From the NCBI RefSeq assembly GCF_030848495.1, contig NZ_JAVDDT010000002.1:434001-498000 (forward strand): 64,000 nucleotides of DNA, written 5' to 3'. Below the pieces are notes generated by a model. It was given only the letters and a program-made list of their open reading frames with translations, did not search any database and had not been told where the DNA came from. Source of the DNA: Natronospira bacteriovora. Its GTDB lineage: Bacteria; Pseudomonadota; Gammaproteobacteria; Natronospirales; Natronospiraceae. The position numbers and the translations under genes were made by a program. Numbering within the stretch: position 1 is the first letter of the stretch; each line of letters begins with the position of its first letter. Positions 5,224 to 22,296 of the stretch are shown here, in pieces.

Positions 5224-5229
5224 CCGAGC

Positions 5230-5259: not shown

Positions 5260-5285
5260 AATTCAGAGGGAGATGGGGTCAGGGC

Positions 5286-7254: not shown

Positions 7255-7285
7255 CCTCCACGATTTTTCCTGTCCATAATCACAA

Positions 7286-7337: not shown

Positions 7338-7373
7338 ATTGTGAAAACGGAAAATCGTGAAAGGGGTTGAACC

Positions 7374-7643
7374 ATGAACAATCGCTTCAAGGCACTGATT
7401 GCGGCCACTCTCTTTTTCCTTGCCCACGGGCTCTTCGCCGGGCAAGCCATCAATATCAATGAGGCAAGCGCCGAAGAAATGGCCGAAGCCCTGACGGGTG
7501 TGGGCCAGGCCCGTGCGGAAGCCATTGTCGAGTTTCGTGAGGAGCACGGCCGCTTCATGAGTGCTGACGACCTGGCGCTGGTGTCCGGTGTCGGGGAAGT
7601 CACGGTGGAGCGTAATCGCGAGCGTATTCGCGTGGATGACTGA
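7374..7643 (+). CDS. ComEA-like secreted helix-hairpin-helix protein
   Basis: An 89-residue protein with a signal peptide (RFKALIAATLFFLAHGLFAG) and a mature part made of one ComEA-type domain: ININEASAEEMAEALTGVGQARAEAIVEFRE, then a second hairpin VSGVGEVTVERNRERI. In competent bacteria ComEA binds incoming DNA in the periplasm; short forms such as this are widespread and their role is often untested. A terminator follows directly, so it is probably transcribed alone. Confidence 0.8.
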   Translation: MNNRFKALIAATLFFLAHGLFAGQAININEASAEEMAEALTGVGQARAEAIVEFREEHGRFMSADDLALVSGVGEVTVERNRERIRVDD

Positions 7644-7675
7644 GACTCTCGCCGGTCAGCGGTGAGGGAGTGCGG

Positions 7676-7707
7676 AAGGGCGGGGACCTGCGGGTTTCCG
7701 CCCTTTT
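7676..7707 (+). terminator. Rho-independent terminator after the ComEA-like gene
   Basis: An 8-bp stem (7676-7683 with 7697-7704) whose 3' arm merges into a run of five T (7703-7707). It separates the ComEA-like gene from galU. Confidence 0.75.
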
Positions 7708-7828
7708 TCATGATGGCAACTTTCCTGATTGTGACGGTTTCAAGAATTCGCTGGCTTCGGCCTTTCATGGCAGCTCGGGTCGCATTAGACTGTCGCCGCA
7801 ATGCCACAGAACCGATCTGGAGATCCGC

Positions 7829-8710
7829 GTGAGCAAGAAGATTCGCAAAGCCGTGTTTCCCGTTGCAGGCCTGGGTACCCGATTTCTGCCCGCCACCAAG
7901 GCCAATCCCAAGGAAATGCTGCCTGTCGTTGACAAGCCCCTGATTCAGTACGCTGCGGAAGAGGCGGTGGAAGCCGGCGCCGAGGTGTTGATCTTCGTGA
8001 CCGGGCGCAACAAGCGGGCGATTCCCGATCATTTTGATCGTGCCTACGAGCTGGAGAATGAGCTCGCCCTGCGCCACAAGAACGAGCGCCTGGAAGCGGT
8101 CCAGAACATCGTCCCGCCGGGAGTGGATTGCGTCTACATCCGACAGGCCGAGGCTCTCGGCCTGGGTCATGCCGTGCATTGCGCCCGCAACCTGGTGGGC
8201 GACGAGCCGTTCTTCGTGGTGCTGGCCGACGACCTGGTTCACGCCAACGGGCAGGGCTGCCTGAGCCAGATGCGGGATCAGTACGAGAAACTGGGCGGCA
8301 GCATTCTGGGTGCCCAGGAAGTACCCATCGAGCATGTCTCCCGCTATGGCATCGTCGATGGCGAGCCGGAAGGCGAAAACATCCGCCGCCTGCGGGGTAT
8401 GGTGGAGAAACCGTCTCCGGACAAGGCACCCTCCAACATGGGCGTGATCGGCCGCTATGTGCTCACCCCACGAATCTTCGACCTCCTGGCCACCACCGGC
8501 CGCGGTGCCGGCGGCGAAATTCAGCTCACCGACGCCATCGACCGCTTGCTCAAGGAAGAACCGGTGTATGCCTTCAACTTCGACGGCAAGCGCTACGACT
8601 GCGGCGACAAGCTCGGCTACCTGGAAGCCAACGTGGAACTGGCTCTGGCCCACCCCGAACTGGGCGAAGGCTTCCGCGCCTACCTCAAAGACTTCCTCAA
8701 GACCCTATAA
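7829..8710 (+). CDS. galU: UTP-glucose-1-phosphate uridylyltransferase
   Basis: A 293-residue nucleotidyltransferase making UDP-glucose for surface polysaccharides. The start region carries GLGTRFLPATKANPKEMLP (nucleotide loop and catalytic Lys), followed by DDLV and the C-terminal FDGKRYDCGDKLGYLEA typical of GalU. I chose GTG at 7829 because GGAG lies 6 bases ahead and the protein then begins VSKKIRKAVFP like its homologues; an in-frame ATG at 7670 lies in the terminator region. Confidence 0.94.
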   Translation: MSKKIRKAVFPVAGLGTRFLPATKANPKEMLPVVDKPLIQYAAEEAVEAGAEVLIFVTGRNKRAIPDHFDRAYELENELALRHKNERLEAVQNIVPPGVDCVYIRQAEALGLGHAVHCARNLVGDEPFFVVLADDLVHANGQGCLSQMRDQYEKLGGSILGAQEVPIEHVSRYGIVDGEPEGENIRRLRGMVEKPSPDKAPSNMGVIGRYVLTPRIFDLLATTGRGAGGEIQLTDAIDRLLKEEPVYAFNFDGKRYDCGDKLGYLEANVELALAHPELGEGFRAYLKDFLKTL

Positions 8711-8883
8711 GAATAAAAGCGCCGCGAGATGCACGCGAAATGACTGCAAAATAATGAAGAACGAAAGACAGCGAACAGTAGCGCGATCTGATTGAGCGCG
8801 CTGATTCCGATGGATGTGAGGATTTTCGCGGCCTGAAGGTTCCTGTCAGCGTCTCGTGATCTGTCTTGCTGGACAATCGCAAT

Positions 8884-8943
8884 TTGCAATCGATATGACA
8901 GTGAACTATTTTTTATTTATCGCCGTAGGATTGCAGGCGATAA
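8884..8943 (+). promoter_or_regulatory. Predicted promoter and leader hairpin of the protease gene
   Basis: A -35 box TTGCAA (8884-8889) and a -10 box TATTTT (8907-8912) are separated by 17 bases. Downstream, an 8-bp inverted repeat (8917-8924 with 8936-8943) could form a leader hairpin or be an operator. The surrounding 260 bases after galU are AT-richer than the neighbours and hold no gene. Confidence 0.45.
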
Positions 8944-8972
8944 AGTATAAACCATGACAGAAGGAACCTGCC

Positions 8973-10371
8973 GTGAAATATCTTTTGACTCTCTCTCTCT
9001 CTCTCTCTCTCTCTATTCTTAGCTACACCTCTGAATGCCATGGAACCGCCCTGGGTGGGTACGGATGGCAGCAGGTTTGAGAACAATCGCTGGATTGTCG
9101 GGTTCAATCGACAAGACGAGTTGCCATCGCAGGCGGTTGGCGAGCTTGCCCATCAGCTCGGTCGCCAGCTGGGTTTTCAACCGTTGCTCGTTTTCGAGCA
9201 CGTCCATCGTGGATTTCTGGTGGAGTTGCCGGAGCACCCAGCCCGTTCACTTGAGCGAAATCCGAATATTCGTTCAGTGCGAAGAGATCGTGTTGTGCAT
9301 ACCCTGAGCGGAACAACGCAGCAAGAGGCGGATTGGAGCCTCGACCGGATAGATCAGCGTGATCTCCCCCTGTCCGGTTCCTATTCCTACGACTATGATG
9401 GGGCCGGCACGCGGATCTACGTGGTGGATAGTGGCGTCAGACTGACTCACGAGCGTTTTGGTGGCAGGGCCCAGCGTGTGTACGACCGTTTCGACAGTGA
9501 CTCCGATTACAGGGAAACCTGTGATACTGACTATGTGTGCTGTGTGGACGACTGCGGCAGTGTCTGTCCTATCCCATCGCCGGGGCAGGGTGATGGAGCT
9601 GCCACACCGAATTTTCACGGGACCGGGGTTGCCGGCAAGGCGGCGAGTGGTGTTCTTGGCGCTGCTCAGGGTGCGAGTATTGCGGATGTGCGGGTACTCA
9701 ATTGTCGCGGCGCCGGTATGGTCAGTGATGTGATTGATGGTTTGGCTGCTATTGCATCGCTGGAGTCTGCTGCGGGGGGAAAGTTGGCAGTGGTGAATTT
9801 GAGTATCGGATTCCCCCATACGGAAGCGGACGTAACGGATCTCGAGGAGGCGATACGGGATCTACCAAGTAATCTTCTGTTGGTGGCGGCAGCCGGGAAT
9901 AAAAATACGGATGCCGCTACGCTGGTCCCTGCCAGAATGGCCGAGGTTATTACGGTAGGCGCGAGCACCGAGAAAGATCGGCGTTATTGGGTGAGCAGTG
10001 AGGTTGGCTCCAATTACGGTGATGCGGTCGACCTGTTCGCACCGGGGCACAATGTGGAGATGCCATCATCGGAGAATGATACCGCGACCCGGGTCGACTG
10101 GGGCAGCTCCTACTCCGCCCCTTTGGTCGCCGGTGTCGCGGCGATCCATGCCCAAGCGGAAGGTGGTTTTATATCCCCCGGTGCACTTCGCCAGGTTCTC
10201 ATTAGCGAGGCTACCACTGGGCGCTTGACACATTTGTCTGGATCACCGAATCGTCTACTTTATCAGTCGCACAATACGGGAGATTCCGGTGACGACGGGT
10301 CGGGTTCCGGTGGTGGCGGATCGGGGTGTCCGTATCAGGATGAAGACGGGAACTGGATCATGTGCCCGTGA
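8973..10371 (+). CDS. Secreted subtilisin-like serine protease (S8), out of frame at a CT tract
   Basis: From the ATG at 9040 there are 443 codons with the S8 triad: Asp130 (YVVDSGV), His193 (NFHGTGVAGK) and Ser357 (WGSSYSAPLVAG), plus oxyanion Asn287. Residues 18-88 look like an I9-type propeptide; a segment with six cysteines (161-176) sits between Asp and His; the tail is Gly-rich. The ATG at 9040 has no ribosome site and no signal peptide. A GTG at 8973 with AAGGA 8 bases ahead opens a good signal peptide, but runs through 13 CT units and is then in the wrong frame, ending at 9080. With 11, 14 or 17 units it would read through Leu-Ser repeats and FLATPLNA into the protease. The protein is therefore probably periplasmic or secreted when in frame, and off as given. 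Confidence 0.8.
8989..9014 (+). repeat. (CT)13 dinucleotide tract in signal-peptide codons
   Basis: Thirteen uninterrupted CT units encode alternating Leu and Ser in the hydrophobic core of the protease signal peptide. The GTG frame (8973) is phase 0 and the protease frame is phase 1, so 13 units is out of frame; one unit more or two fewer restores it. With 12 or 15 units the frame stops at a TAG (9020-9022). Confidence 0.9.
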
Positions 10372-10385
10372 CTCTTGCGACATCC

Positions 10386-12247
10386 ATGATGAGAACGTGT
10401 CTTTCCGTTGCCGGGCTGATGGTTTGTTGGCTGCTTGTTGGCTTGCCTGTTTCGGCGGAGGCTGCCCGGGGCGAATCCCCGGGCAGCCTTGCGCCCGCCT
10501 CGGGTGTTTTACCCCCGTATGAGTCCTTTTCGCGCTTCACGGTCGCGTGTCGGCCTATTCCGATGACTATCTGTTGCTGGGTGTGCCGGATGCGAAAGAC
10601 GCCCGCGGTGTGGAAGTGGGTGGCCTGATGATCGTTGCCCCGGGCGAGGACGGGTTGTGGCAACGTCGGGAGTGGATTGATGGTCTGGACATTGTCGGCC
10701 AGAGCGGATCGCTTTTTGGCATTTCTTCAGCAGTGGAAGGGGATGGCTTCTTTGTCGGTGCGCTTTGGGAGAATAGACTCTATAGCCTAGATAATACGGG
10801 CAAGGTATATCAGTTTTATCGTGATCCTGAGACCGGGTTTGTTGAGCATCTTCGCGAGATTGCGAGACCGGAGCCTGATATCGCACAATTTGGCACTGGT
10901 CTTGCTTCCGAAAGAGATTGGCTGATTGTCGGTGCGACCCTGGGCGAGGGTACCCTGCCATCAACCCTCGGGGCGGCCTATGTCTTCCATTGGTCAGATT
11001 CGGCGAATGACTGGGTGTACCAGCAGAAACTGCTGGCCCCGGACGGCGAAGAGGGCGGACGGCAGGATGCCTTCGGCTCGACCGTGAAGCTGGCTTATCC
11101 CTGGTTGGCTGTTCATGCACGCAATGCCTGGGTGGAGGACATCGGCGAGCGCAATGGTGCCACTTACCTGTTCCGCCACGACCCCGATGCCGATGAGTGG
11201 GCCTTCTTTCAGAAAATCTCGGCCGTGCTTCCCGACGAAGGCGCGGAGGCCAGTGACACGAAGCTGATGTATTTCAATGGGGCGGATCTGCTCTTTCATT
11301 CGGGCCAACTGAACGAGGACCTCACCCGTACCACTCGTCTCGAACACTTTGTCTGGAACGAGGATGAGGTACTCTGGCAGCGTTCTGCGGTCATGCGGGG
11401 GCCGGAGCGGGAAGCGGGCAGCTGGCATACTTACGGCTGGTCGGCCATGATTCGGGACGATCGCTTGTATCTCGGATTCCCATCCGCCTTCGATGAAGCA
11501 GGCCGGCGGGGTGAGGGCGCGGTGCGTATCTACGATAGGGATCCGGGAGCGGAGAACGGCTGGCGGTTCCGGGAGGAGCTTCGGCCACCATGGTCGCAAT
11601 GGGGCACAAGACAACACGCCTTGGGTGTGGCTGTGGCGCCGGCCGGTCCGTATGGAGTTATCGTTCTGAGCGGTAACGACAGTATGTATCCAGGGCTGGG
11701 TAGCGCTGCCTATGTTTACCAGCCGGACGCGAAGCCAGTGCGTCTGTCGGTTTCGGATACCTGGACGGACCAGACGCCGGTTGCCGGTCGAACATTCAGA
11801 CATCATTGGCGTATCGAAAACAGTGGCGATAGCCGGGCCACTAATGTCTTGCTTCGGATGCAGTACGCGCCAGGCGCCCCCGACGATGTCAGCGGCGAGA
11901 ATGCCATTTGCGAGTGGAACAGCGTCCTCCAGTCCACTCTCTGCCTAATCGAGGAGGTTCCTGCGCAGGGGCATGTGACAGTGACCTTGAAAACCACTTC
12001 CCAGCGGGTGACCAACTACAGGATTGATGCGCTTTTGGTGTCTGATCAGATTGACGAAGACCCCGACGGGCGAGAGACCTCTGTGCGTTTGGATGTCGTC
12101 GAGTTTTGGGATGTCGGCGATGGTGTGGGCTGTGCCGCCAGCGGCCGCCCACCCACTGAGCTCCTGCTGTTCCTGTTTGTGACGATATGCGCTTGGCGAT
12201 ATCGTTTTGGACGCCCGGAGGATGGTACCCCAAGGGTATCAAAATGA
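10386..12247 (+). pseudogene. Secreted beta-propeller-like protein with a frame break near the N-terminus
   Basis: An ATG at 10386 opens a signal peptide (MMRTCLSVAGLMVCWLLVG, then PVSAEAA) in one frame; the body of the protein lies in another frame, open from 10523 to 12247. One extra T in the TTTT at 10527-10530 would join them into about 620 residues and give FFALHGRVSAYSDDYLLLGVPDA, an FG-GAP-like repeat start. Several further repeats of the type DRLYLGFPSA follow, then a DUF11-like domain (about 11750-12110) and a C-terminal membrane helix ELLLFLFVTICAWRYRFGR after GCAASGRPP, which resembles a sorting tail. It starts 15 bases after the protease. A GTG at 10547 could start a version without signal peptide. 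Confidence 0.6.
10460..10488 (+). other. Perfect GC-rich hairpin inside the signal-peptide region
   Basis: A perfect 12-bp inverted repeat (10460-10471 with 10477-10488) with a 5-base loop. It is not followed by a T-run, so a terminator role is uncertain. It lies between the signal-peptide codons and the frame break of the beta-propeller-like gene. Confidence 0.6.
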
Positions 12248-12285
12248 TTTTGCAACCATTTAGCCGCGCATTTTTCTTTTGATTG

Positions 12286-13464
12286 TCAGTAAATAAACCA
12301 ACCTGCGCCGGCCGCGATGATGATGAGCAGCCAGATGGGCAGGCGGCCGGTGGCCAGGGTGGTCAGGACGGCGAGGGCGATGAGGCCATCGCGCCAGTCG
12401 GCGATGCCGGCGGTGAGGACGGGGTCGTAGAAGGCAGCCGCGAGGATGCCGACGACGGCAGCATTGACCCCGGCCAGGTGGCGGCGCAGGCGCTGGTTTT
12501 CCCGCACTCGCGCCCAGAAGGGCAGTATCGCCAGCAGGATCAGCATGCCGGGCAGGAAGATGATGGTCAGGGCCAGCAGGCCGATTCCGATTCCCCCGGC
12601 GACCGTGCCGACGAAGCCGCCAAAGGCGAACAGCGGTCCGGGCAGGGCCTGGGCGGCGCCGTAGCCGGCCAGGAAGGTGTCTTCGTCCATCATGCCGGTG
12701 GCAACCGTCTCGGCATGGAGCAGGGGCAGGACCACATGCCCACCGCCGAAGACCAGGGCGCCGGCTCGGTACATGGCATCGCTGATCGTCAGCCAGGTCG
12801 CGGGCGACAGCCAGGCCATGAATGGCAGACCCATAAGCAGCGCCAGAAAGAGTCCGCCCGCCAGCAGGCCGCCTCGTCGGTGGAAGGGCAGAGCAAGGGG
12901 TGAGCCTGTCTGTACGGCAACTTTGGGTACCAGCAGGGGCGCCAGCAGGGCACCGAGAACAATCGCGCCGATCTGCCCCACAGCCGTGAGACCAAGCAGC
13001 AGCGGCAGGCCCAGGGTGGTTGCCACGGCAAGGGCCGCAATCAGCAGGCGCTGCCAGTCCGGGGTCAGGCTGCGGGCCATGCCCCAGACAGCCCAGGCAA
13101 CCACGCCCACTGCGGCGGCTTTCAGTGCCCGCACTGCCCCCTCGTAATCGCCTGGTTCAAACAGTGCCAGCCCGCTGGCCAGGGCAATCATGATGATGGC
13201 CGAGGGCAGGGTGAAGGCGAGCCAAGCCGCAAGAGCGCCTGTCAGCCCGGCCCGATGCAGGCCAATGGCGAAGCCGGCCTGGCTGCTGGCCGGCCCGGGC
13301 AGGAACTGGCACAGGGCGATCAGCTCGGCGTAGGTGTCGCTGGCCAGCCATCGGCGTCGCTCAACGAATTCTTTCTGAAAAAAGCCCAGATGGGCAATCG
13401 GACCGCCGAAGGACGTCAGCCCCAGAAGCAGGAATACCCGGAAAACCTCCCACGAAGCCCTCAT
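12286..13464 (-). CDS. chrA: Chromate transporter, CHR family (long form)
   Basis: A 392-residue membrane protein with the two homologous halves of long-chain CHR transporters. The N-terminal half has LTSFGGPIAHLGFFQKEFVE and CQFLPGPASSQAGFAIG; the second half repeats the theme with GGGHVVLPLLHAE and GYGAAQALPGPLFAFGGFVG. Family members export chromate, usually by exchange or proton coupling; the substrate here is inferred. The ATG at 13464 follows the stop of the upstream DCC-family gene by two bases, so the two form an operon. Confidence 0.9.
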   Translation of the reverse strand: MRASWEVFRVFLLLGLTSFGGPIAHLGFFQKEFVERRRWLASDTYAELIALCQFLPGPASSQAGFAIGLHRAGLTGALAAWLAFTLPSAIIMIALASGLALFEPGDYEGAVRALKAAAVGVVAWAVWGMARSLTPDWQRLLIAALAVATTLGLPLLLGLTAVGQIGAIVLGALLAPLLVPKVAVQTGSPLALPFHRRGGLLAGGLFLALLMGLPFMAWLSPATWLTISDAMYRAGALVFGGGHVVLPLLHAETVATGMMDEDTFLAGYGAAQALPGPLFAFGGFVGTVAGGIGIGLLALTIIFLPGMLILLAILPFWARVRENQRLRRHLAGVNAAVVGILAAAFYDPVLTAGIADWRDGLIALAVLTTLATGRLPIWLLIIIAAGAGWFIY

Positions 13465-13982: not shown

Positions 13983-14033
13983 TCTGGCTCCCCGGGACGG
14001 GCTCGAACCGCCGACCTAGTGATTAACAGTCAC
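13983..14033 (-). repeat. attL: 51-bp duplicate of the tRNA-Asn 3' end
   Basis: Identical over 51 bases to 22219-22269, which is the 3' part of the intact tRNA-Asn from the anticodon stem-loop to CCA. The flanks differ at once on both sides. This is the left direct repeat made by site-specific integration; the fragment itself is not a working tRNA. Confidence 0.93.
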
Positions 14034-14170
14034 GGAAGGCGACATTTCTGGACGCTTCAAATCACTAGGCGACCATTACAGTCAACCCCCAAAACCCTTG
14101 ACAGGCAGGGCTCCCCGGCTTACCGTTAATTCAGGACATTTCCATTAGGTGCACAGCTTGTCGGCTCCAG

Positions 14171-14196
14171 TGTGCACCCAGTTGTGCACCCAATTC
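14171..14196 (+). repeat. Integrase arm-type repeats, left end
   Basis: Two direct copies of TGTGCACCCA (14171-14180 and 14183-14192) start 12 bases apart and are followed by ATT. The same pair with the same spacing occurs at the right end (22142-22167). This spacing is typical of arm-type sites bound by the N-terminal domain of tyrosine integrases. Confidence 0.75.
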
Positions 14197-14284
14197 CTAG
14201 TGATGGGGAATGATTTAGGACGGTTTCGGGCCGTTTCTGGGTGCACAGAGGCACCGTTGGGTGCGCACGCGAGGAGAATCGGGC

Positions 14285-15691
14285 ATGGCCAGAAAAGGCA
14301 TTTCAGCGAAAAAGCTGGACAACCTGGAGGGTAAGCGCCGAGATTCGGCAACCCGCCTATGGGATGGGGACGGCTCCGGGTTTGGGGTGAAGGTGTCTGC
14401 TGCCGGGCGGCTGTCGTTCTTCCAGTTCTACTACGCTCCCGAAGGGACTACGGACAAGGACGGCAATGATATCTCCGGCAAACGCCGATTCCTCACACTG
14501 GGCACCTATCCGGCCATGACGCTAGGCGAGGCCCGCACAGCGGCGCTTAAGCAGCGCAAGCTAGTAGATCAGGGGGTAGACCCGCAGGAGCACGCCAGAG
14601 AGCAGCGAGAACAGGCCAGACGGGAGAACCGGAAGCGGGCCGAGCGGGGCACCCTTGCAGGCGTGGCGGCGCTCTACATGCGCCACATGCGCTCACGCGC
14701 GCGCTCACGGGAATATATAGACGCGGTGCGGCGTGGCTGGCATCGCGATGTGTTCCCGGTGGTTTCCAGAGAGACAAAGGCCGCCGAGGTGACGGCAGAG
14801 GATATTCAGTTGATCCTGCACCGCCCCCTGAGCCGGAATGCTGAGCATACCGCTAGAGTGCTCCGGGCGAATCTTCACAAGGCGTTCAAGCTGGCGATTC
14901 AGGCCGACCATGACCCCCGCAACCTTGGGAATCCGATCAAGTTCAAGGTGACTCACAATCCCGTGGCTGATGTGCCGTTGGAGGTCCATGTGACACCGGG
15001 GGATAGGGAACTGTCATTCGACGAAATTGGGCGAGTCTGGCGCGAGGTGGATCGTGCGACTCCCTACCCAAGTGATGCCCTGCTGATTCGTCTGCTATTG
15101 GCATTGGGCGGCCAGCATGTTCGCGAGGTGCGCGAGGCCGACTGGGCGGAGTTCGACTTGGCTGGGCGACAATGGCTGATGAAGGCTGCAAGGCATAAGA
15201 ACCGAACCCGTGACCATCTTGTGCCCCTGAATCATTGCGCATTGGAAGTACTGGATGAACTGCGCATCCTTACCGGCGGGCGGGGCTATCTGTTTCCTCA
15301 AGTCCGAAGGCTCGAAAAGCCAATGCGGGCAGAGCGTCCGGGGGTGATCGTCCGGGCGCTGCTGGATGATATGGAAAAGCGTGGTGAGCCTATGGACAAG
15401 TTCACCGCTGCTGACTTCCGCCGAACCTGCAAAACCCGTATGCACGAGATTGGCATCCCAAAGACCACCACAAATCAGATTCACAATCACGACTTCGGTG
15501 GTGTAAGTGCGAAGCACTATGACCGCTATGACTATTGGGCCGAGAAACAACGGGCCATGACAGCATGGGATATTGCCTTGCGGGCTGCTATTAAAGGCAA
15601 GTCGATCTCCACGGCGGCCTGTCGGCGGGCGCTGCAGTGGACAGAGGCGGGCAGCGAAATTGAGCCTATCAGCATGGAGGGCCGGGCATGA
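14285..15691 (+). CDS. Tyrosine recombinase (DUF4102-type integrase), box I Arg replaced
   Basis: A 468-residue integrase: N-terminal arm-binding DUF4102-like domain (ARKGISAKKLDNLEGKRRD, ending near SLGEARTAAL), core-binding domain around 120-235 and a catalytic domain from about 245. The C-terminal part has the subfamily signature NHDFGGVSAKHYDRYDYW, with Tyr412 as the likely nucleophile and Arg379 in FRRT. The box I segment reads GGQHVREV, so His278 stands where the first catalytic Arg (R-x-x-E) is expected; the codon CAT is one transition from CGT. The ATG at 14285 has GAGGAG 9 bases ahead. It lies next to attL and its stop overlaps the next gene by ATGA. Confidence 0.9.
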   Translation: MARKGISAKKLDNLEGKRRDSATRLWDGDGSGFGVKVSAAGRLSFFQFYYAPEGTTDKDGNDISGKRRFLTLGTYPAMTLGEARTAALKQRKLVDQGVDPQEHAREQREQARRENRKRAERGTLAGVAALYMRHMRSRARSREYIDAVRRGWHRDVFPVVSRETKAAEVTAEDIQLILHRPLSRNAEHTARVLRANLHKAFKLAIQADHDPRNLGNPIKFKVTHNPVADVPLEVHVTPGDRELSFDEIGRVWREVDRATPYPSDALLIRLLLALGGQHVREVREADWAEFDLAGRQWLMKAARHKNRTRDHLVPLNHCALEVLDELRILTGGRGYLFPQVRRLEKPMRAERPGVIVRALLDDMEKRGEPMDKFTAADFRRTCKTRMHEIGIPKTTTNQIHNHDFGGVSAKHYDRYDYWAEKQRAMTAWDIALRAAIKGKSISTAACRRALQWTEAGSEIEPISMEGRA

Positions 15692-16098
15692 GCGAAACCC
15701 AAGTTAAACGCTACTTGCGGGCAGCTTATAAGGCCGACCCAGATACTTTCAGTAGATTGGTGCGTGAATACCTTGAGCATGGTGAAGAAGTATTTGATGC
15801 CCCAAAGCCAGGCACAAATGCCGGACGGAAAAAGCAGATAGGCCTTGATAACTATGCGCTGCTATATGTCCGTGTCTCTAATTTGCGCGCAAGGGGCCTA
15901 TCGGAAACGGCAGCCCTGAAAGAAATTGCGGAGCGTAAGGACTATTGGGCGAATCACGAAAGTGGATTTTCCACAACTATCGAGTCAGCGAGCACTGCTC
16001 GGAAGCATTTCAAGCATGCTGAAAAGATGTATAACGATGACCCGCTATTTCGTGAATGGGTTGAATTTCTGGTGTGGGCCTATAAGGCGATTACCTAA
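15688..16098 (+). CDS. Satellite protein of unknown function
   Basis: I do not recognise this 136-residue protein. It is soluble, mostly helical by composition, with a basic N-terminus (VKRYLRAAYKADPDTF) and an aromatic C-terminal helix (EWVEFLVWAYKAIT). It overlaps the integrase stop by four bases and has GAGG ahead, so it is co-translated with int. A role in integration or regulation is possible from position only. Confidence 0.6.
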   Translation: MSETQVKRYLRAAYKADPDTFSRLVREYLEHGEEVFDAPKPGTNAGRKKQIGLDNYALLYVRVSNLRARGLSETAALKEIAERKDYWANHESGFSTTIESASTARKHFKHAEKMYNDDPLFREWVEFLVWAYKAIT

Positions 16099-16138
16099 TA
16101 CCGTTTTGGTATTCATGGCATAGGATTGCGGCTCATAT

Positions 16139-16174
16139 ATTGCACTCGGGTTCACAACAAACCGAAGGTGCAAT
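16139..16174 (+). promoter_or_regulatory. Inverted repeat covering the AlpA-gene ribosome site
   Basis: The ends ATTGCAC (16139-16145) and GTGCAAT (16168-16174) are complementary, as are GGGTT (about 16148-16152) and AAACC further in. The last base is directly before the ATG of the AlpA-like gene, and the 3' arm contains its AAGG ribosome site. It could be an RNA switch over the start, an operator for AlpA itself, or both. Confidence 0.5.
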
Positions 16175-16399
16175 ATGGAAAGATTAGAAAAGGAGGAAAG
16201 CCCGAGCCGCCTTTGCCGCAAGGCCGAAGTAATTGCCCGAACTGGGCTATCCGACACATCCATTTGGCGGCGTGAGAAAGAAGGCCGCTTCCCGCCGAGA
16301 ATCCGCTTGGGTGCCCGTTGCACCGTATGGCGCGCCTGTGACCTAGAGCAATGGCTTGCAGATCCTGCTGGCTATCAGCGGGAGGTGGCCGATGTGTAG
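16175..16399 (+). CDS. AlpA-family DNA-binding regulator
   Basis: A 74-residue helix-turn-helix protein. The HTH is CRKAEVIARTGLSDTSIWRRE, followed by the wing and FPPRIRLGARCTVWRACDLEQWLAD, which is the AlpA/excisionase-like pattern. In satellites such as PICIs and P4-like elements AlpA proteins activate excision and replication genes, and that is the likely role here. The start is enclosed in an inverted repeat. The next gene begins inside its last eight bases. Confidence 0.82.
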   Translation: MERLEKEESPSRLCRKAEVIARTGLSDTSIWRREKEGRFPPRIRLGARCTVWRACDLEQWLADPAGYQREVADV

Positions 16400-16715
16400 T
16401 CAATATCCTCCCGCAAACCAGCTTCGCGAAAACCCTCGACAATCCCTGGACCTTAACTACTGGCGTGAACTGGCCGCAAAGCACGGCCACCGTATGCCCC
16501 GCAGCGACACAAAGGGATGGCCCGCCCGCAAGCTGATGCGGCGATATGGAGTCACTCTGGCAGAGTTCCGAGCCGTCCACGGCTGTACCCCCACGAAATG
16601 GCGTGAATTAAACCCCAATTGGAGCCTAACTGGGTTTGCGGGCCTGCTCCTGGAGATCGTTGAAAATCGGTCTGAGAACCGGGGGCTTGAGTCGGAAGGG
16701 GCCGAAAAGTGGTGA
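16392..16715 (+). CDS. Small satellite protein of unknown function
   Basis: 107 residues from the ATG at 16392, preceded by GGAGG. The middle part (LNYWRELAAKHGHRMPRSD, then KLMRRYGVTLAEFRAVHG) looks like a small helical DNA-binding-type fold but matches nothing I can name. It overlaps the AlpA-like gene by 8 bases and sits before the replication-like gene. Confidence 0.55.
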   Translation: MCSQYPPANQLRENPRQSLDLNYWRELAAKHGHRMPRSDTKGWPARKLMRRYGVTLAEFRAVHGCTPTKWRELNPNWSLTGFAGLLLEIVENRSENRGLESEGAEKW

Positions 16716-16735
16716 CAAACAAGGAAAAGGGGACG

Positions 16736-16897
16736 ATGCAGCCGCCAAGCACACACCGTCCCCCGATTGACTCCCAACGAAAGGACATCACTGCCGATGG
16801 TAGCAACCGCGTCTGTGCCTGGCTAGTAGCTCTGAGCGTTCGAGGTTGGCTCCCCCTCAGTATCGGCTGGTGGGCCGAAAGGGGGCGTAATGGCTAA
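16736..16897 (+). CDS. Very small satellite protein
   Basis: 53 residues from the ATG at 16736, with AAGG 7 bases ahead; an in-frame GTG at 16709 is an alternative start. The second half (CAWLVALSVRGWLPLSIGWW) is hydrophobic and Trp-rich and may form one membrane or hairpin helix. It overlaps the next gene by 8 bases. I cannot assign a function and it may be a regulatory or coupling ORF. Confidence 0.4.
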   Translation: MQPPSTHRPPIDSQRKDITADGSNRVCAWLVALSVRGWLPLSIGWWAERGRNG

Positions 16898-17711
16898 GCC
16901 GAGGAAGGTCAAAAAGCACTGTCGGGTTTATCAATACGAGGCAGACAGCGCGGCGTTCCGTTCGCTTTCACCAGAAGCGGTTTCGCTGCTGGTGCAGATG
17001 CGTTTGCTCTATAACGGAAAGGGAAACCGTGTGTTCATGAGTGTGAGAGAAATACAGCGGCGGGTCAATGTGGGCCGATACAAGGCCGAGAAAGCGCGTG
17101 ATGAATTACTAGGCACGGGATTCATTCGCCTGCTTTCACAGGGGTCATTCAGCCGAAAAGCCCAACATGCTTCCGAGTATGCGCTGACCAATGAGGATCT
17201 GGATGACGGAACGCCAGCGCCAAAGGACTACATGCACTGGAAGCCGGGTCCAGGGGGCAGCGAACTGTCAGCATTGGGAAAAAACGCGGTGCTGGTGAGC
17301 GACACCGACGGTGCTTGTGAGCAACGCCGAGGGGCAGTTTCCGAACCTGCAATAAGGGCTGTCGGTGCTGGTGAGCAACACCGGGAAGGAGGATTTGTTC
17401 AATGTCTCGGTGTTGGTGGCAAACACACAGCTAAGTTACCAGAGGGAGTTGGTAGGGAGAGAGGGAAGATAATCAAAACAGGCGGACGAGTTGACTGCAA
17501 ATGTGGCGGCGGCGCGTACCCAAATTGCGAGAAAACTGACGGTATGACGCTGCATTTCCACCAGTGTGGATCATGTGAGCGCGTAGACCGTTTTGTCTTG
17601 GAGAAAGGTGGCGCATACATCGCCAAGGATCGAGAAGCGCAACAGATATACCTGGAAGCAATGAAGGCAAAGGCTTTTAGGCAGGTGATGGTGACGAATG
17701 CTCAAAGGTGA
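16890..17711 (+). CDS. Replication-initiator-like protein with winged helix and Cys-rich tail
   Basis: 273 residues. Residues 20-110 read as a winged helix: VSLLVQMRLLYNGKGNRVFM, then SVREIQRRVNVGRYKAEKA with TGFIRLLSQGSFSRKAQHAS, similar in plan to phage replication initiators (O or DnaD type). A low-complexity middle part (about 130-185) coincides with four 19-bp DNA iterons. The C-terminal part has a cysteine cluster (CKCGGGAYPNC, then HFHQCGSC) that may bind zinc. The family is not certain. The arrangement, initiator domain first and iterons inside the gene, is that of lambda O and its origin. Confidence 0.55.
   Translation: MAKPRKVKKHCRVYQYEADSAAFRSLSPEAVSLLVQMRLLYNGKGNRVFMSVREIQRRVNVGRYKAEKARDELLGTGFIRLLSQGSFSRKAQHASEYALTNEDLDDGTPAPKDYMHWKPGPGGSELSALGKNAVLVSDTDGACEQRRGAVSEPAIRAVGAGEQHREGGFVQCLGVGGKHTAKLPEGVGRERGKIIKTGGRVDCKCGGGAYPNCEKTDGMTLHFHQCGSCERVDRFVLEKGGAYIAKDREAQQIYLEAMKAKAFRQVMVTNAQR
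17288..17427 (+). repeat. Four 19-bp iterons inside the replication-like gene: candidate origin
   Basis: The consensus GGTGCTGGTGAGCAACACC occurs at 17288-17306, 17310-17328, 17364-17382 and, more diverged, 17409-17427. Start-to-start distances are 22, 54 and 45 bases. Copy 1 is read in one frame (AVLVSDT) and copies 2-4 in another (GACEQR, GAGEQH, GVGGKH), so the DNA word, not the peptide, is what is repeated. Each copy has GGTG and CACC-like ends. An A-rich stretch follows near 17465-17480. Confidence 0.7.
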
Positions 17712-17810
17712 AAGATTGGCGCTGTTCTCGGGAGGGGCGTCTTGTGTTTGTCACCGTGGACGACAGGAACGGAGAGGGATCCTTTGTAGAAAATTAATTG
17801 AGGAAATGCT

Positions 17811-18131
17811 TTGAAAAAATTGCCGCCCGAAAATCTGAGCCCGGAAGCTGCCGATTGGTGGAGTCGGCTGGTGACGGAATATGCCCTGGATGATGACGCG
17901 GGCCGCCTGCTGCTGCAAGTGGCCCTGGAGGCCTTCGACCGGATGCGGGATGCCCAGGCGACCATCAAGCGGGACGGGGAAACAGTCCTGGACCGATTCG
18001 GGCAGCCCAAGGCCCATCCTTTGTTGCCGACCGAGCGGGATAGCCGAGGGCAGATGTTGGCTGCTTTGAAGCAATTGAACCTGGACCTTGAGCCCCTGAG
18101 GGACGGTCCAGGCAGACCGCCGGAGGTTTAA
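17811..18131 (+). CDS. Phage terminase small subunit, P27 family
   Basis: 106 residues of the P27-type small terminase pattern: LSPEAADWWSRLVTEYALDD at the start, a helical core with LLQVALEAFDRMRDAQATI, the typical DRFGQPKAHPLLPTERDSR and a helical tail LAALKQLNLDLEPL. Small terminases choose the DNA to be packaged. TTG at 17811 is the start, with GAGGA 6 bases ahead. No large terminase follows, so in the satellite view it would send the element's DNA to a helper's motor. Confidence 0.85.
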   Translation: MKKLPPENLSPEAADWWSRLVTEYALDDDAGRLLLQVALEAFDRMRDAQATIKRDGETVLDRFGQPKAHPLLPTERDSRGQMLAALKQLNLDLEPLRDGPGRPPEV

Positions 18132-18133
18132 CC

Positions 18134-18427
18134 ATGCCGACTGTTCGCAAACGCAGATCCCGCCGGAGGCAGCACGGCTGCCCAGCGGAGTTGGTGGACA
18201 CATTCTCAGTGGGTGGGGGCATGGCCACCTACTCGGATGAGTGGCTGCGCCAGCAATGGAACCGCTACGGGCCCGCGTTCAAGGCCTGGTGGCATCAACA
18301 CCACGGGGCGGATGATCCGCCTTTTATTGAAATCATCCTGGGTCCGCCAGAGGACAGCCAGGATGGCCAGCAGAGGAGCACGAACGATGGAAATGCAGAA
18401 GATTCTGAAGAAGATGTTTGGCGGTAA
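18134..18427 (+). CDS. Small satellite protein of unknown function
   Basis: 97 residues, starting two bases after the small terminase stop and preceded by GGAGG. It has a very basic N-terminus (RKRRSRRRQHGC), a Trp-rich centre (WLRQQWNRYGPAFKAWW) and an acidic tail. I do not recognise the family. Its place between small terminase and prohead protease suggests a packaging or capsid role, by position only. Confidence 0.6.
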   Translation: MPTVRKRRSRRRQHGCPAELVDTFSVGGGMATYSDEWLRQQWNRYGPAFKAWWHQHHGADDPPFIEIILGPPEDSQDGQQRSTNDGNAEDSEEDVWR

Positions 18428-18992
18428 CGGTTTGACGGTGGCCGAAGCCCAGTCCCTGAAGGACCAGAGCCGCCGCAGACTGGCTGAAATAGATAACCGG
18501 CTGGAGACCCTAACGAGGAAGGAGCGCCCGCATACGGTCCGCTATGGCACGCCTGAGGCTCTGTTGAAGCTGGACCAGGAGGCACAGAGGCTTAAAGCCG
18601 AATCCGAACAGGTCAGGGCCCGGCAATCGGAAGTCCGACTGGCCCTGAGAGAGGCTGAAGGGGTAGAGGCTGTGGCGGGAGCAAAGGAGTTCAAGCGGGG
18701 TATCGCAGATGCGGTAGCGGCTGCCGAGAGCTTGGAGCGTCAAGCGGCTGCAGCCAGGGAAGAAGTTTGCCAGAAGATCACGAAACTAAGCCAACTGCGC
18801 CGCAAAGCGGCAGAAATTAATCAGCCGGTGAGCAAACTGGACCTTCCTTTGGACTTGGCAAGGCGTGCTGCGGTTATTGCGAAGCGCGATAGGGTAGACC
18901 AGGTACGCCTTGTACGGTCACTGGCTCCCAGCAGTAGAAAGGTGACGCCACCGTCTGAGCAGAAAGGTGAAATCATACGGGAGGAAACATGA
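18387..18992 (+). CDS. Coiled-coil satellite protein
   Basis: 201 residues from the ATG at 18387 (GAGG ahead), overlapping the previous gene by 41 bases. Residues 20-150 are rich in heptads of Leu, Ala, Glu and Arg (RRRLAEIDNRLETLTRKER; LKLDQEAQRLKAESEQVRA), so a long coiled coil is likely. Function unknown; a scaffold-like or capsid-interacting role would fit the neighbours but is not shown. Confidence 0.65.
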   Translation: MEMQKILKKMFGGNGLTVAEAQSLKDQSRRRLAEIDNRLETLTRKERPHTVRYGTPEALLKLDQEAQRLKAESEQVRARQSEVRLALREAEGVEAVAGAKEFKRGIADAVAAAESLERQAAAAREEVCQKITKLSQLRRKAAEINQPVSKLDLPLDLARRAAVIAKRDRVDQVRLVRSLAPSSRKVTPPSEQKGEIIREET

Positions 18993-19225
18993 GAGCCGTC
19001 GAGCGTGCGGAGATCGGTCGCCGCCCACAGCAAACGGCTGATGATGAGCAGTTCCGGGGCATAGCCCGGCATCCCTTGGCGCGGCGGTGGCTTTTGCGTC
19101 GCTATCGGGAGGCCACCCGATTGGTGGCGACTGCCGAAAATACCCGAACCCGTGAGCGCTGGACATTGGAAGTCCGGCGTTTACAAGCGGAAATGTCCCG
19201 GTTGGGCATGGAGGAGAAGCGATGA
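18989..19225 (+). CDS. Small basic satellite protein
   Basis: 78 residues linked to both neighbours by ATGA overlaps. It is rich in Arg and Glu with HPLARRWLLRRYREATRLVA and a helical tail RRLQAEMSRLGMEEK. I cannot name the family. The tight coupling between the coiled-coil protein and the protease suggests that the three products are made together. Confidence 0.6.
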   Translation: MRAVERAEIGRRPQQTADDEQFRGIARHPLARRWLLRRYREATRLVATAENTRTRERWTLEVRRLQAEMSRLGMEEKR

Positions 19226-19746
19226 AGATTCAGGGCTATGCCGCCGTGTTTAACTCGCTGTCCGCCGACCTTGGCGGGTTCCGTGAGCAGATCATGCCGG
19301 GAGCGTTCACCAGAACACTTACGGGCGGTACTGAAGTGCTGGCGTTTCACCACCACGACTATTCGCAGGTATTGGGCAGAACCGGGAACGGGAGCCTTCA
19401 CCTATCCGAAAACAGTCGCGGGCTGCATTTCACGCTGGAACTGCCTGATACGACATTGGGGCGGGATACCTACGCCCTGGTTAACCGCCGCGACTTAGGG
19501 GCAATGTCGTTCGGTTTTGCGGTGCCGAACTCTAAGGGGGAATCGTGGAAGGAGACTGACAAGGGGCTTATCAGGAGCCTTCACGCTGTAAACCTGCTGG
19601 AGATATCCACCACTTCTATACCGGCATATCCGGCGACAGTGGTAAAGGGTGCATTGGCACCAAAAACTAATCATGCCCGTAGTCTGCGCCGCAGGATGAA
19701 GGCAAGGCAATTGGATTCGATTGCGGCACACTTGCAGGCGGCCTGA
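19222..19746 (+). CDS. HK97-family prohead protease
   Basis: 174 residues beginning IQGYAAVFNSLSADLGGFRE, then the family signature IMPGAFTRTL, FHHHDYSQVLGRTGNG with the conserved His near residue 50, and GAMSFGFAVP with the Ser region. Such proteases (U35/S78) cut the delta domain or scaffold during capsid maturation. The length is normal and the ends are intact. It is odd that no major capsid, portal or scaffold gene is present in the element. It ends the plus-strand operon. Confidence 0.88.
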   Translation: MKIQGYAAVFNSLSADLGGFREQIMPGAFTRTLTGGTEVLAFHHHDYSQVLGRTGNGSLHLSENSRGLHFTLELPDTTLGRDTYALVNRRDLGAMSFGFAVPNSKGESWKETDKGLIRSLHAVNLLEISTTSIPAYPATVVKGALAPKTNHARSLRRRMKARQLDSIAAHLQAA

Positions 19747-19830
19747 ATCGGGCTAGGCGGATAACCGCCTGAGTCACCCGCGCGGCACGGGGCCCAAATG
19801 CCGCATAGCCCATCAATGGTTTAGAAATAA

Positions 19831-20076
19831 TTATTTATCGTTGCGGAGAGACCACCAATTAAATATCGCTCCAAGCGCACACGACGGGATAATGTTTATA
19901 AAAGCTGAAATCAGAAAGATAGGAAACCAAGCAGAGTCAGGGGAGTTGGAGTCAATTATTAACCATGAAAAGAAAATATATGTGAATGGAAAAGATATAA
20001 AATAACTCCATTTCATCGCTCTAGACTCAATTTCCGCCTTCCTTTGGGTGTCTGTTGCTTTGTCTCTGATCTTCAT
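19831..20076 (-). CDS. Small membrane protein in the cargo operon
   Basis: 81 residues with two likely membrane helices (about 25-43, SYFISFPFTYIFFSWLII, and 50-72) after a charged N-terminus. Base composition is AT-rich compared with the rest of the window. The ribosome site is weak. It lies 70 bases after the SH3-domain gene in the same direction, so it may be the third gene of that operon. Unrecognised family. Confidence 0.45.
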   Translation of the reverse strand: MKIRDKATDTQRKAEIESRAMKWSYFISFPFTYIFFSWLIIDSNSPDSAWFPIFLISAFINIIPSCALGAIFNWWSLRNDK

Positions 20077-20146
20077 GACCGCATTCAGGACGGAAAAGCT
20101 GGAGTGATGTGGGGTGAAAAACTAAAGGTATCGGGAATCACTGGGA

Positions 20147-21070
20147 TTAACCGTCAATTAGAGTTATGTGTTCAACCGAGACCCAGCCGGATTGGTTCTT
20201 ATTTCTCAGGTAATTGAAGTACTCGACATTAGCCCATCCGCCATTCATGTCTAACAACCTAAGTTTTCTGTTGGGGGGCAACACTTCTATTACATTATGT
20301 TCCGTGCTGGGGCCGGATCGGAGGTTAAGCCTGGTCGAGGTTACATAGAAAACTTCGTTTTTTTCTTCTGATAGCATTGATTTATATTGAGCGCTAATCG
20401 ATCTTTCCAATTGCTCCACTGCAGATATTATTTCAGCCTGTGCTTCCTCGTGATTCTGCTTCGCGCTGTAATCCATTATCAGTGTAAATATAATCATCAG
20501 CCAAAATTCCCTGCTCAATGGTCCGGTTGGAGCTGATCTGAACTCTTCGGAGACATATTCCGTTATCTTTCTCGGGTCTTCGCTTCTTTCCTCCATTTCA
20601 GTTTGTAAGCGAATCAAGTGGTCGTATGATTCGGAAAATGCCAAGGGGCCATAAGTTGATGAAAGACGATCAGCCATTTCGGCAATCACGCGCATCGCGG
20701 GAGAGTCTTCTAGGCCGTAGAGCGCCTTTAGACTTCCAGCTTCTTGTATTTTCTCAATGAACCGGAAAGCAGGAGAGTTTTCCAGCGAGTGAGAATCCAT
20801 TGCCTCAGACGCCTTCTCGGCTTGCCTGGCTAGTTGCATTTCTGGGAGGTTATTAAGTTCTTGAAGGTTATTGTAAAAGTCAGAGCGTATAAGTCTATCA
20901 ACAGCTTTCTGTACTCGCGTGAAGTGTGGGTCTGTGTTTATGGTGTCAAGCTTTTCAATGGAGTTAATGGATTTGAAAATGGACTTATATGATTTCATGG
21001 CCGGCGAGTTTTCAAGAGCTTTTAGTGCTCTCAGTAAGTTTTTTGGGAGTTTTCCGCCTGCGTCAGTCAT
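20147..21070 (-). CDS. Membrane-anchored SH3b-domain protein with LExSPA repeats
   Basis: 307 residues with an unfamiliar plan. The N-terminal 180 residues are helical and contain three copies of a short motif: LENSPAM (19-25), LENSPAF (96-102) and LEDSPAM (120-126). A single membrane helix follows (about 186-203, EFWLMIIFTLIMDY), then a short coiled segment and a bacterial SH3 domain (241-303, FYVTSTRLNLRSGPSTEHNV; GGWANVEYF). I cannot name a family for the first part. It overlaps the upstream gene by 8 bases (ATGACTGA), so both are translated together. AT-rich, near attR: likely cargo. Confidence 0.7.
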   Translation of the reverse strand: MTDAGGKLPKNLLRALKALENSPAMKSYKSIFKSINSIEKLDTINTDPHFTRVQKAVDRLIRSDFYNNLQELNNLPEMQLARQAEKASEAMDSHSLENSPAFRFIEKIQEAGSLKALYGLEDSPAMRVIAEMADRLSSTYGPLAFSESYDHLIRLQTEMEERSEDPRKITEYVSEEFRSAPTGPLSREFWLMIIFTLIMDYSAKQNHEEAQAEIISAVEQLERSISAQYKSMLSEEKNEVFYVTSTRLNLRSGPSTEHNVIEVLPPNRKLRLLDMNGGWANVEYFNYLRNKNQSGWVSVEHITLIDG

Positions 21071-21425
21071 TGCTATTCAACTTCTTGTTTTGGAGCACGA
21101 CAGGGATATTGAACCGTACTCTTGTCAGAGAGCTGTTTTCGCTCGACGATTGCCCGGAACCACCAAGTGAAATCAACCCAGACGCCACATTGATTCCAGC
21201 TTTAGAATCCTTTCCTTCCGTTATTGAAAGTGAAACATCGAAATCGATTAAGGTGGCAATCTGGCCGTTCATGGCTGGGAAAAAGAATCCACCGTCCTTA
21301 TTTGCAGCCGTCCCGGCGATGGCCGGATTGATAATAGAATCGCTTTTTTCCGCAGCTTGCTTTGCATCTGATACGCCATCAACGATTTGTGTGAGGGTTT
21401 CGGTAATAAATTCCTTCAATTCCAT
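21063..21425 (-). CDS. Small cargo protein, first gene of the minus-strand operon
   Basis: 120 residues from the ATG at 21425 with GGAG 7 bases ahead; longer in-frame starts lack a ribosome site. The N-terminus LKEFITETLTQIVDGVSDAK is a helix seen, as I recall, in uncharacterised bacterial proteins; the second half alternates beta strands (LIDFDVSLSITEG and LTRVRFNIPVVLQ) with a Gly-Ser loop. Function unknown. Coupling to the membrane SH3 protein suggests a two-component module. Confidence 0.65.
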   Translation of the reverse strand: MELKEFITETLTQIVDGVSDAKQAAEKSDSIINPAIAGTAANKDGGFFFPAMNGQIATLIDFDVSLSITEGKDSKAGINVASGLISLGGSGQSSSENSSLTRVRFNIPVVLQNKKLNSND

Positions 21426-21646
21426 TTGGCGTCTCCGTTTGGTATAAACCTGTGAACTCCGACAAGCATAGCTAATGATCAGGAATTTTGTAGGAAGTGT
21501 TGGTTTGGATTTTGCTGCTGACCACCAGATGAGAGCAGTAGCCGCCCTGAGGCACCGGAACAATGTTCATTGTCGCTGGCAGGTTTTCGCGTGGTGACGG
21601 TTTTTATACTTCGCTGGCGTGATTGAGTTATTTGGGAGAATTCTGT

Positions 21647-21955
21647 ATGGCAGTTGTTGGTAAGAGAAGGATAGCGATTGAGGCAATTGCGGCAGATTGC
21701 ATGCCCGATGCGTGGTGTATTACGGGTAGTGACGAAGGCGGGGGCGGTATCCATTTAAGACTCGAGCGGCAGGGTGATTGTCAGCCCTACTGGGTTCAGT
21801 TTCCAAAGGAGACGCTTGACGATTCCCTGTTTCACGACGACGGGTCAGTGTTGAGCGAGAGGGGCCGCGAATGGCTTACGGTTTTTTTCCGCGATCGGCT
21901 TGAAGAGTTGCCGGAAGGCGATGAGCGTATCTTTTTGTCGGCCGATATTGAGTGA
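21647..21955 (+). CDS. Orphan satellite protein next to attR
   Basis: 102 residues from the ATG at 21647, preceded by GGGAG. It reads as a small alpha/beta protein (RRIAIEAIAADCMPDAWCIT; YWVQFPKETLDDSLF) with an acidic tail. No family recognised. It is divergent from the cargo operon; the 221-base gap between them would hold both promoters. Confidence 0.5.
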   Translation: MAVVGKRRIAIEAIAADCMPDAWCITGSDEGGGGIHLRLERQGDCQPYWVQFPKETLDDSLFHDDGSVLSERGREWLTVFFRDRLEELPEGDERIFLSADIE

Positions 21956-22141
21956 TCCCACCTGAGCCCCGCTTTAGCAACCTTGGCTGCGTCGGTTGGC
22001 ATCGGTAGGAGAGGGCATTCTATTAGTTGCCGGGCTGGTATTCGGTAGGCTTCGACCGACATGCCTTGTCGGGCATTTTCGGCAGTCCCTGTCAGTGTTT
22101 CTTGGATGCTAAATCGTGGCAGCTCTACTGGCTTGAGCCGA

Positions 22142-22167
22142 TGTGCACCCAGCTGTGCACCCAATTT
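22142..22167 (+). repeat. Integrase arm-type repeats, right end
   Basis: TGTGCACCCA at 22142-22151 and 22154-22163, again 12 bases apart and followed by ATT. Over 26 bases it differs from the left-end pair (14171-14196) at one position only. It lies about 50 bases inside attR. Confidence 0.75.
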
Positions 22168-22177
22168 CAGATCAGCA

Positions 22178-22212
22178 ACAAAAAAGGGGTTAGGCGAATC
22201 GCCTAACCCCTT
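22178..22212 (-). terminator. Island-borne terminator for tRNA-Asn
   Basis: A perfect 12-bp stem (22184-22195 with 22201-22212) and a 5-base loop, with a T-run on both sides, so it can stop transcription in both directions. It gives the tRNA-Asn gene a new terminator in place of the one displaced to 13941. Confidence 0.85.
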
Positions 22213-22218
22213 GCTTTT

Positions 22219-22269
22219 TCTGGCTCCCCGGGACGGGCTCGAACCGCCGACCTAGTGATTAACAGTCAC
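22219..22269 (-). repeat. attR: 51-bp repeat within tRNA-Asn
   Basis: The right copy of the 51-bp direct repeat. It supplies the 3' half of the tRNA, so the gene stays intact after integration, as is usual for tRNA-targeting integrases. Confidence 0.93.
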
Positions 22270-22296
22270 CCGCTCTACCAACTGAGCTACCGGGGA
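22221..22296 (-). tRNA. tRNA-Asn (GTT)
   Basis: 76 bases with the acceptor stem TCCCCGG/CCGGGGA, the D-loop AGCTCAGTTGGTAGAGC, anticodon loop CTGTTAA (anticodon GTT) and T-loop GGTTCGAGCC, ending in encoded CCA. It is the integration target of the island. A promoter with TTGACG and TAAGAT spaced by 17 bases lies upstream (22327-22355). Confidence 0.95.

Follow-up and report, generated by a model that had tools for sequence, protein, structure and literature searches.

A tRNA-Asn-integrated island of about 8.2 kb in Natronospira bacteriovora carries genes for a P27-type small terminase subunit (TerS) and an HK97-type prohead protease, while every other recognised head gene is absent. It spans positions 13983-22269 of the stretch analysed (G000:C2:434001-498000 of contig NZ_JAVDDT010000002.1; 64,000 nucleotides (nt), hereafter the window), in a host genome of 3.0 Mb in 15 contigs that is 97.3% complete. 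The island is highly likely to be a phage satellite and, on balance, appears to be one resembling the phage-inducible chromosomal islands (PICIs), with a partial head kit that would act on the heads of a helper phage. Judged from gene content, what looks new among PICI-like elements is this mix-and-match partial head kit in an element that does not look like a visibly decayed prophage, and hijacking at capsid maturation is plausible.

Boundaries and insertion site

The island is delimited by identical 51-bp direct repeats (attL and attR; Table 1), and the right copy constitutes the 3′ portion of a tRNA-Asn gene (22221-22296, minus strand); this bears out both the coordinates and the discrete, satellite-like nature given in a preliminary description made from the sequence alone. 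A chance origin of the repeat was rejected, as even the best match among 20 shuffled pairs of flanks reached only 11 bp. In two congeners (G001 and G002) the site is empty: tRNA-Asn is intact, with 78/78 bp the same as in the window, and lies within ~120 bp of a chromate-transporter gene with no island in between. In G001, the short hairpin sequence that borders attL on its left in the window adjoins the left side of the tRNA at the empty site. Insertion looks site-specific and recent within the host lineage and, since attL is identical over 51 bp and the congeners are empty, the element was probably at or close to its present size when it moved. Rfam matches within the island are limited to the tRNA.

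TerS and prohead protease without other head genes

TerS and the protease stand at the two ends of an unbroken, tightly packed, operon-like block, TerS-ORF6b-ORF7-ORF8-protease, with the protease last. Both genes, and the three small open reading frames (ORFs) of no known family between them (18134-18427, 18387-18992 and 18989-19225), were present as first described. TerS matches PF05119 (8.8e-6, above the Pfam cut-off), phrog_83 (2.1e-10) and TIGR01558 (3.8e-9, under that model's cut-off). The protease (PF04586, 1.8e-45) also matches TIGR01543 above the cut-off of that model and retains His45 and Ser96, which occupy invariant columns of a 10-row alignment.

Custom hidden Markov models (HMMs) for capsid, portal and the large terminase subunit (TerL), trained on phage loci and on loci resembling capsid-forming PICIs (cf-PICIs) and covering HK97-type genes, gave a best E of 0.8 against 317 six-frame segments of the island. 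Capsid, portal and TerL of non-HK97 types were absent from the island ORFs in Pfam and PHROGs scans only. The absence of all other recognised head genes, as previously noted, thus holds in the six-frame, Pfam and PHROGs searches, and the six-frame search rules out a capsid remnant behind the protease or between TerS and the protease. A complete prophage was rejected, as there is no head, tail or lysis module and no capsid, portal, TerL or tail family. The preliminary description had also suggested looking for the same TerS-to-protease block beside integrase and AlpA in other genomes; it was not found, and the combination is unique among the material examined. No close relative of the island bearing a full set of head genes, which would point to a decayed prophage, was found.

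For ORF7, the first-listed start at 18213 is probably too early, and the ATG at 18387 sits behind GAGGAG. Its single-sequence AlphaFold2 model (predicted local distance difference test score (pLDDT) 77.9) has helices at 18-53 and 56-179, and a fold search gave nothing significant (best E 0.052). Besides its own genome, ORF7 found four weak matches (E ~5e-4) across 398 phylum genomes, all inside open frames of 850-1013 aa; homology to a coil gene beside the protease of G012, a genome of the same taxonomic order as the host, was unconvincing (BLASTP E 0.015 over 41 aa). TerS, ORF7 and ORF8 had no match among phage records, and neither island DNA against those records nor ORF7 and the replication initiator against viral contigs gave anything useful.

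A proposed action on helper heads

The host genome contains a single PF04586 protease, that of the window, and no PF05065 capsid or PF03354 TerL, and on these grounds a helper prophage within it was rejected. With neither capsid nor TerL of these types in a 97.3%-complete genome, the helper that would switch on AlpA is probably an infecting phage. Int would then excise the island, and replication would start from the iterons; AlpA induction and Int-mediated excision are proposed from the published behaviour of PICIs and of phage-inducible chromosomal minimalist islands (PICMIs) (PMC6092414, PMC10803314). The island TerS would steer the helper TerL to island DNA, as for published satellites, and redirection of packaging is a probable role for it. 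ORF7 may act in helper proheads as a scaffold-like factor for head size or for entry; its identity as a scaffold is doubtful. The protease, for which action on helper heads has an even chance, could be the cognate remover of ORF7 or a substitute maturation enzyme. HK97-type proteases act on scaffold or delta domain in the prohead (in part from PMC6893505). The protease is last in a tight block that also encodes a 201-aa helical protein, so the most economical reading that accounts for every part would be a scaffold and a protease acting together on the helper shell, with island-bearing heads maturing and helper heads disturbed.

Known satellite routes are packaging choice (TerS, Rpp, cos sites), capsid size (Sid, CpmB, Ccm, TcaP) and a whole capsid of the satellite's own. 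If the proposal is true, a satellite with a selector and a maturation protease adds proteolytic maturation to the known redirection steps. It would also suggest that head genes are acquired one by one, with intermediates between plain and capsid-forming PICIs, and such stepwise uptake bears on the origin of the latter.

Relatives of the protease and possible descent by loss

A profile scan with alignment A1, one genome per species, yielded 394 protease relatives, and the best 80 were analysed. A capsid gene was identified by the custom HMMs in 78 of these 80 loci, and the genes run capsid-protease-portal in 71 of them, portal-protease-capsid in six. L031, which starts at a contig edge, has a portal and no capsid, and L085 is the only locus with neither. 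Capsid or portal is thus next to the protease in 79 of the best 80 genome loci, and in all of the best 80 viral loci from IMG/VR (capsid in 70, portal plus TerL in the remaining 10). L085 corresponds to L005 1-7684 (G012), where an AlpA-like gene and a primase are followed by the protease without capsid, a coil, a tail protein, a tape measure and the contig end. Many of the nearest protease relatives are in cf-PICI-like loci; identity to the best relatives is about 50-55%, with none >55% among the matches listed. In a tree of 85 rows the window protease groups (support 90/80) with enterobacterial and betaproteobacterial cf-PICI-like and phage-type proteases, a placement that would mean no more than a common pool. 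Single-sequence searches recovered, besides the host's own, only the G012 protease (E 1e-8, 144 near genomes) and one on a 5.1 kb contig of G370 (E 1e-12, 369 class genomes).

Several points weigh against a satellite with a functional partial head kit. The capsid-less TerS plus protease combination occurs in the host genome alone, the nearest protease relatives lie in complete head modules, and L085, the sole other capsid-less protease locus, has tail genes and reaches a contig end. The window protease is on a long end branch (1.07) and no close homologue was found in the searches above. ORF6b, ORF7 and ORF8 are orphans, about which a single-sequence helical model says little, and support for TerS is modest. 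Since the nearest protease relatives are in complete head modules, descent by loss from a cf-PICI-like ancestor is possible.

The main non-functional rival is therefore a streamlined or decayed descendant of a cf-PICI or prophage, in which TerS and the protease are left over after loss of capsid, portal and TerL. The capsid and portal counts in genome and viral loci and the long protease branch favour it, as do the P27 type of TerS, which is that of cf-PICI-like L011 and L012, and a distant initiator relative in the cf-like element L017. However, no stop, frameshift or remnant was seen, the remaining genes overlap by ATGA, and simply deleting genes from the cf order capsid-protease-portal-...-TerS-TerL would not yield TerS-x-y-z-protease; the still identical attL and the empty congener sites also argue for insertion at or near the present size. 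Such descent is considered rather unlikely.

The main functional rival is a stand-alone poison of foreign heads: the protease would be a weapon against phages or competitors that cuts capsid delta domains or scaffolds prematurely and so makes competing phage heads fail. Interference and defence genes are common in satellites (PMC6092414, PMC10803314) and this protease stands without its usual substrate, but it is packed with TerS in the operon-like block and not with the low-GC cargo, and PADLOC found no family in nine island ORFs (protease excluded) beyond weak coiled-coil matches; this role is improbable.

A second island in the host genome

A further satellite-like island of ~9.2 kb lies at tRNA-Val (L247 ~3449-12645, corresponding to G000:C2:285948-295144). 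It carries int, an AlpA-like gene (called from a 28-aa BLASTP match to the window AlpA), a 62-codon ORF, a primase, a sigma-like gene, TerL and a coil, and no capsid, portal or prohead protease was recognised in it. Matches to phrog_2 occur at two places in the host genome, this TerL (C2:291844-292971, 1.6e-22) and a 28.6-bit match whose neighbours read as helicase/nuclease-like.

The two islands share a 160-bp element ahead of the replication gene (window 16728-16887, L247 5694-5853; 74% nt identity, E 3.6e-24) and, close to the right end, one of 55 bp (Table 1), despite integrases (31% identity over 78 aa) and AlpAs that are barely alike. Mismatches in the 160-bp element are distributed 13/18/20 by codon position, which leaves coding by the 62-codon ORF unsure; an RNA here was rejected, as the predicted fold is no better than shuffles (z 1.03). 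Core patterns of both shared elements were found in no viral contig. Both elements are candidate sites of recognition by a helper or the host. As a guess, the right-end element is a candidate packaging site or is read by a helper or host factor common to both islands, because unlike integrases would need unlike arm sites.

These features raise the idea of co-operating satellites, with the window island (TerS, protease) and the L247 island (TerL, AlpA-like, primase) sharing a helper or complementing each other. The presence of TerL and lack of a prohead protease in the latter fit this, as do the shared elements. PF03354-type TerL is the usual partner beside P27 TerS, though, and the L247 TerL is not of that type, with no PF03354 elsewhere in the genome; capsid and portal would still be missing, and the lack of the core patterns in viral contigs also counts against co-operation, which is the least probable of the readings considered.

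Replication module and related islands

Three iteron-like repeats of 21 nt (CGGTG...CACCG) at 17287-17383 support the origin proposed in the preliminary description and would fit an iteron-type origin within the initiator gene. The HTH_36 match of the initiator falls under the Pfam cut-off, and over its first ~120 aa it shares 53-55% identity with island proteins from two further genomes in the class. No primase family was found among island ORFs in the Pfam and PHROGs scans. Searches that included the host's own genome matched the initiator in four other genomes of the class (369 genomes) and, using a profile, in 23 others of a phylum sample (398 genomes); among 50,697 phage records it matched none, and among 72,556 plasmids it matched one, weakly.

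Twenty-four initiator-family neighbourhoods were examined (all four found in the class and 20 of the 23 found in the phylum sample). TerL and capsid are both present in two (L230 and L239), and a partial virion set was found in seven (L183, L184, L227, L228, L231, L243 and L244), although for L184 and L231, which are near contig ends, "partial" is less certain. L183 3898-14473 (G282) is a 10.5 kb tRNA-Pro island with a 49-bp identical att repeat, in which the capsid half of phrog_4523, a protease-capsid fusion family, is the sole virion gene recognised. L184 (G137) has a TerS of phrog_57, L227 a TerS of phrog_51 and L228 a DNA-ejection protein. L231 (G513, 9.9 kb contig) carries a capsid C-terminal part and a tape measure, while L244 (G747) has a tape measure and a gene weakly matching two families of unknown function, both of which are also matched by the L231 capsid. 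L243 ~3672-12483 (G686), with a more distant initiator relative, is an 8.8 kb tRNA-Met island (int, AlpA, ParB-like, initiator; att repeat with a 22-bp exact core) encoding a prohead protease and a major capsid protein, with no portal or terminase seen. In the other 15 loci no virion gene was seen by HMM; they have 99 listed ORFs within 6 kb, and a PHROGs scan of 67 of these gave one TerS-type match among the 25 of 57 families shown.

Repeats also recur in this group: in L183 and L184 repeats with a similar palindromic structure occupy the corresponding part of the initiator gene, in L185 and L186 short direct repeats lie at the end of the gene or just beyond, and the clearest repeat of L243, of 23 nt, is within it. 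In L183 the initiator reading frame is broken before the Cys-rich part. In L231 (3775-8300) and L244 (8933-10990) the tape-measure gene stands beside the capsid-like gene, with no other tail genes noticed.

Partial virion sets are thus a recurrent feature of the surroundings of this replication module, and the islands of its nearest initiator relatives (L183 and L184) are among those that carry them, which favours the satellite reading of the window island. A wider proposal is that of a satellite class that would hijack its helper at maturation with TerS, a scaffold-like coil and a cognate protease, the helper providing shell, portal, motor and tail, with piecemeal head genes across winged-helix/iteron satellites and two co-resident satellites bearing different pieces and shared cis elements; in this full form it is unlikely.

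Comparison with known satellites

The accessible literature describes satellites with TerS, a scaffold, a lone capsid homologue or a whole head module including the protease (PMC10803314, PMC6092414, PMC11389934, PMC10945586, PMC6893505, PMC10690885, PMC12324425), and precedents thus exist for single pieces: satellite TerS, the scaffolds CpmB and TcaP, and the capsid homologue Ccm (PMC6893505, PMC10945586, PMC6092414). No satellite combining TerS with a prohead protease in the absence of a capsid was found in this literature, subscription papers being mostly outside the search. The preliminary description had contrasted the island with capsid-forming PICIs carrying the full head module; this was too strong a contrast, as PICIs with a lone capsid homologue are published (SaPIbov5 Ccm, EcCICFT073, PmCI172; PMC6092414, PMC6893505).

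Like Gram-negative PICIs of the EcCICFT073 and PmCI172 type, the island has int, AlpA, a putative replication gene and candidate origin of its own, and cargo; some of those PICIs carry TerS, as here, and some a lone capsid homologue (PMC6092414). The integrase and AlpA-type regulator by which Gram-negative PICIs are recognised are both present, but the island virion gene is a protease and not a capsid homologue, the initiator is of winged-helix/iteron and not Pri-Rep type, and the element measures only 8.2 kb. It would best be called PICI-like, and not a PICI, given the prohead protease, although the published capsid-homologue PICIs make this criterion a non-strict one. With cf-PICIs (PMC10690885) it shares a protease of the same family (40-45% identical to those of cf-PICI-like L007, L009, L011 and L012), P27-type TerS, AlpA and integrase, whereas capsid, portal, connectors, HNH and TerL are lacking, so that of the cf-PICI hallmarks protease and TerS are present and an own capsid, portal and TerL are not. 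PICMIs (PMC10803314) are similarly very small and have int with an ATGA-overlapping gene, alpA, a small gene and a replication gene; they are next to fis and encode a DUF3987/DUF5906 primase, in contrast to the tRNA-Asn site, lack of a primase family and presence of TerS and protease here. The initiator-family islands of G282 (L183), G137 (L184) and G686 (L243) resemble the island in int, AlpA, a related initiator with repeats and partial virion sets, with tRNA att sites in L183 and L243, but their head genes differ: the capsid half only in L183, TerS of another family in L184, and protease plus capsid in L243. P4-like Sid/Psu/Delta and alpha primase families were absent among the ORFs scanned, with no dedicated search made for them.

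Integration, regulation and cargo genes

The integrase (PF00589, PF13356) and AlpA (PF05930, 6.3e-14) were confirmed as first described. ATGA start/stop overlaps occur at three junctions (int/ORF2, ORF7/ORF8 and ORF8/protease), and the position of ORF2 is that of the int-overlapping PICMI gene 'iolg' (PMC10803314). Among 144 related genomes, the ORF4 family was found in the host's own only.

Table 1 Features of the island in window coordinates.
Feature	Position	Strand	Details
attL	13983-14033		51-bp copy of tRNA-Asn 3′ part, identical to 22219-22269
Tyrosine-recombinase integrase, 476 aa	14261-15691	+	PF13356 4.4e-16, PF00589 4.9e-8
ORF2, 136 aa	15688-16098	+	ATGA overlap with int; no family above cut-off
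AlpA-type excision/activation regulator	16175-16399	+	PF05930 6.3e-14, phrog_2790
ORF4, up to 119 aa (later start possible)	16356-16715	+	phrog_21723 4.8e-8
62-codon ORF	16709-16897	+	55% aa identity to L247 counterpart
Replication initiator-like protein, 273 aa	16890-17711	+	N-terminal winged helix (HTH_36-like), C-terminal Cys-rich part
Three 21-nt iteron-like repeats	17287-17383		CGGTG...CACCG; inside initiator gene; origin candidate
TerS, P27 type, 106 aa	17811-18131	+	TTG start; PF05119, phrog_83, TIGR01558
ORF6b, 97 aa	18134-18427	+	Directly behind TerS stop; no Pfam family
ORF7, 201 aa	18387-18992	+	Long helical (coiled-coil-like) in AlphaFold2 model; scaffold candidate
ORF8, 78 aa	18989-19225	+	ATGA overlaps both sides; no family above cut-off
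HK97-type prohead (head maturation) serine protease, 174 aa	19222-19746	+	PF04586 1.8e-45, phrog_80 8.4e-43
Hydrophobic ORF, 81 aa (cargo)	19831-20076	-	No Pfam or PADLOC family
307-aa protein (cargo)	20147-21070	-	C-terminal SH3_3 domain, PF08239 1.6e-10; GC 44%
Unknown protein, 166 aa or shorter (cargo)	21063-21563	-	No Pfam/PADLOC/NCBIfam family
Unknown protein, 110 aa (cargo)	21623-21955	+	No Pfam/PADLOC/NCBIfam family
55-bp right-end element	21961-22015		L247 12256-12310; 84% nt, E 1.3e-10
attR	22219-22269		Inside intact tRNA-Asn 22221-22296 (-)

Downstream of the protease is a low-GC cargo block (44% GC at 20-21 kb), and its genes (19831-21955) are possible defence or toxin genes.

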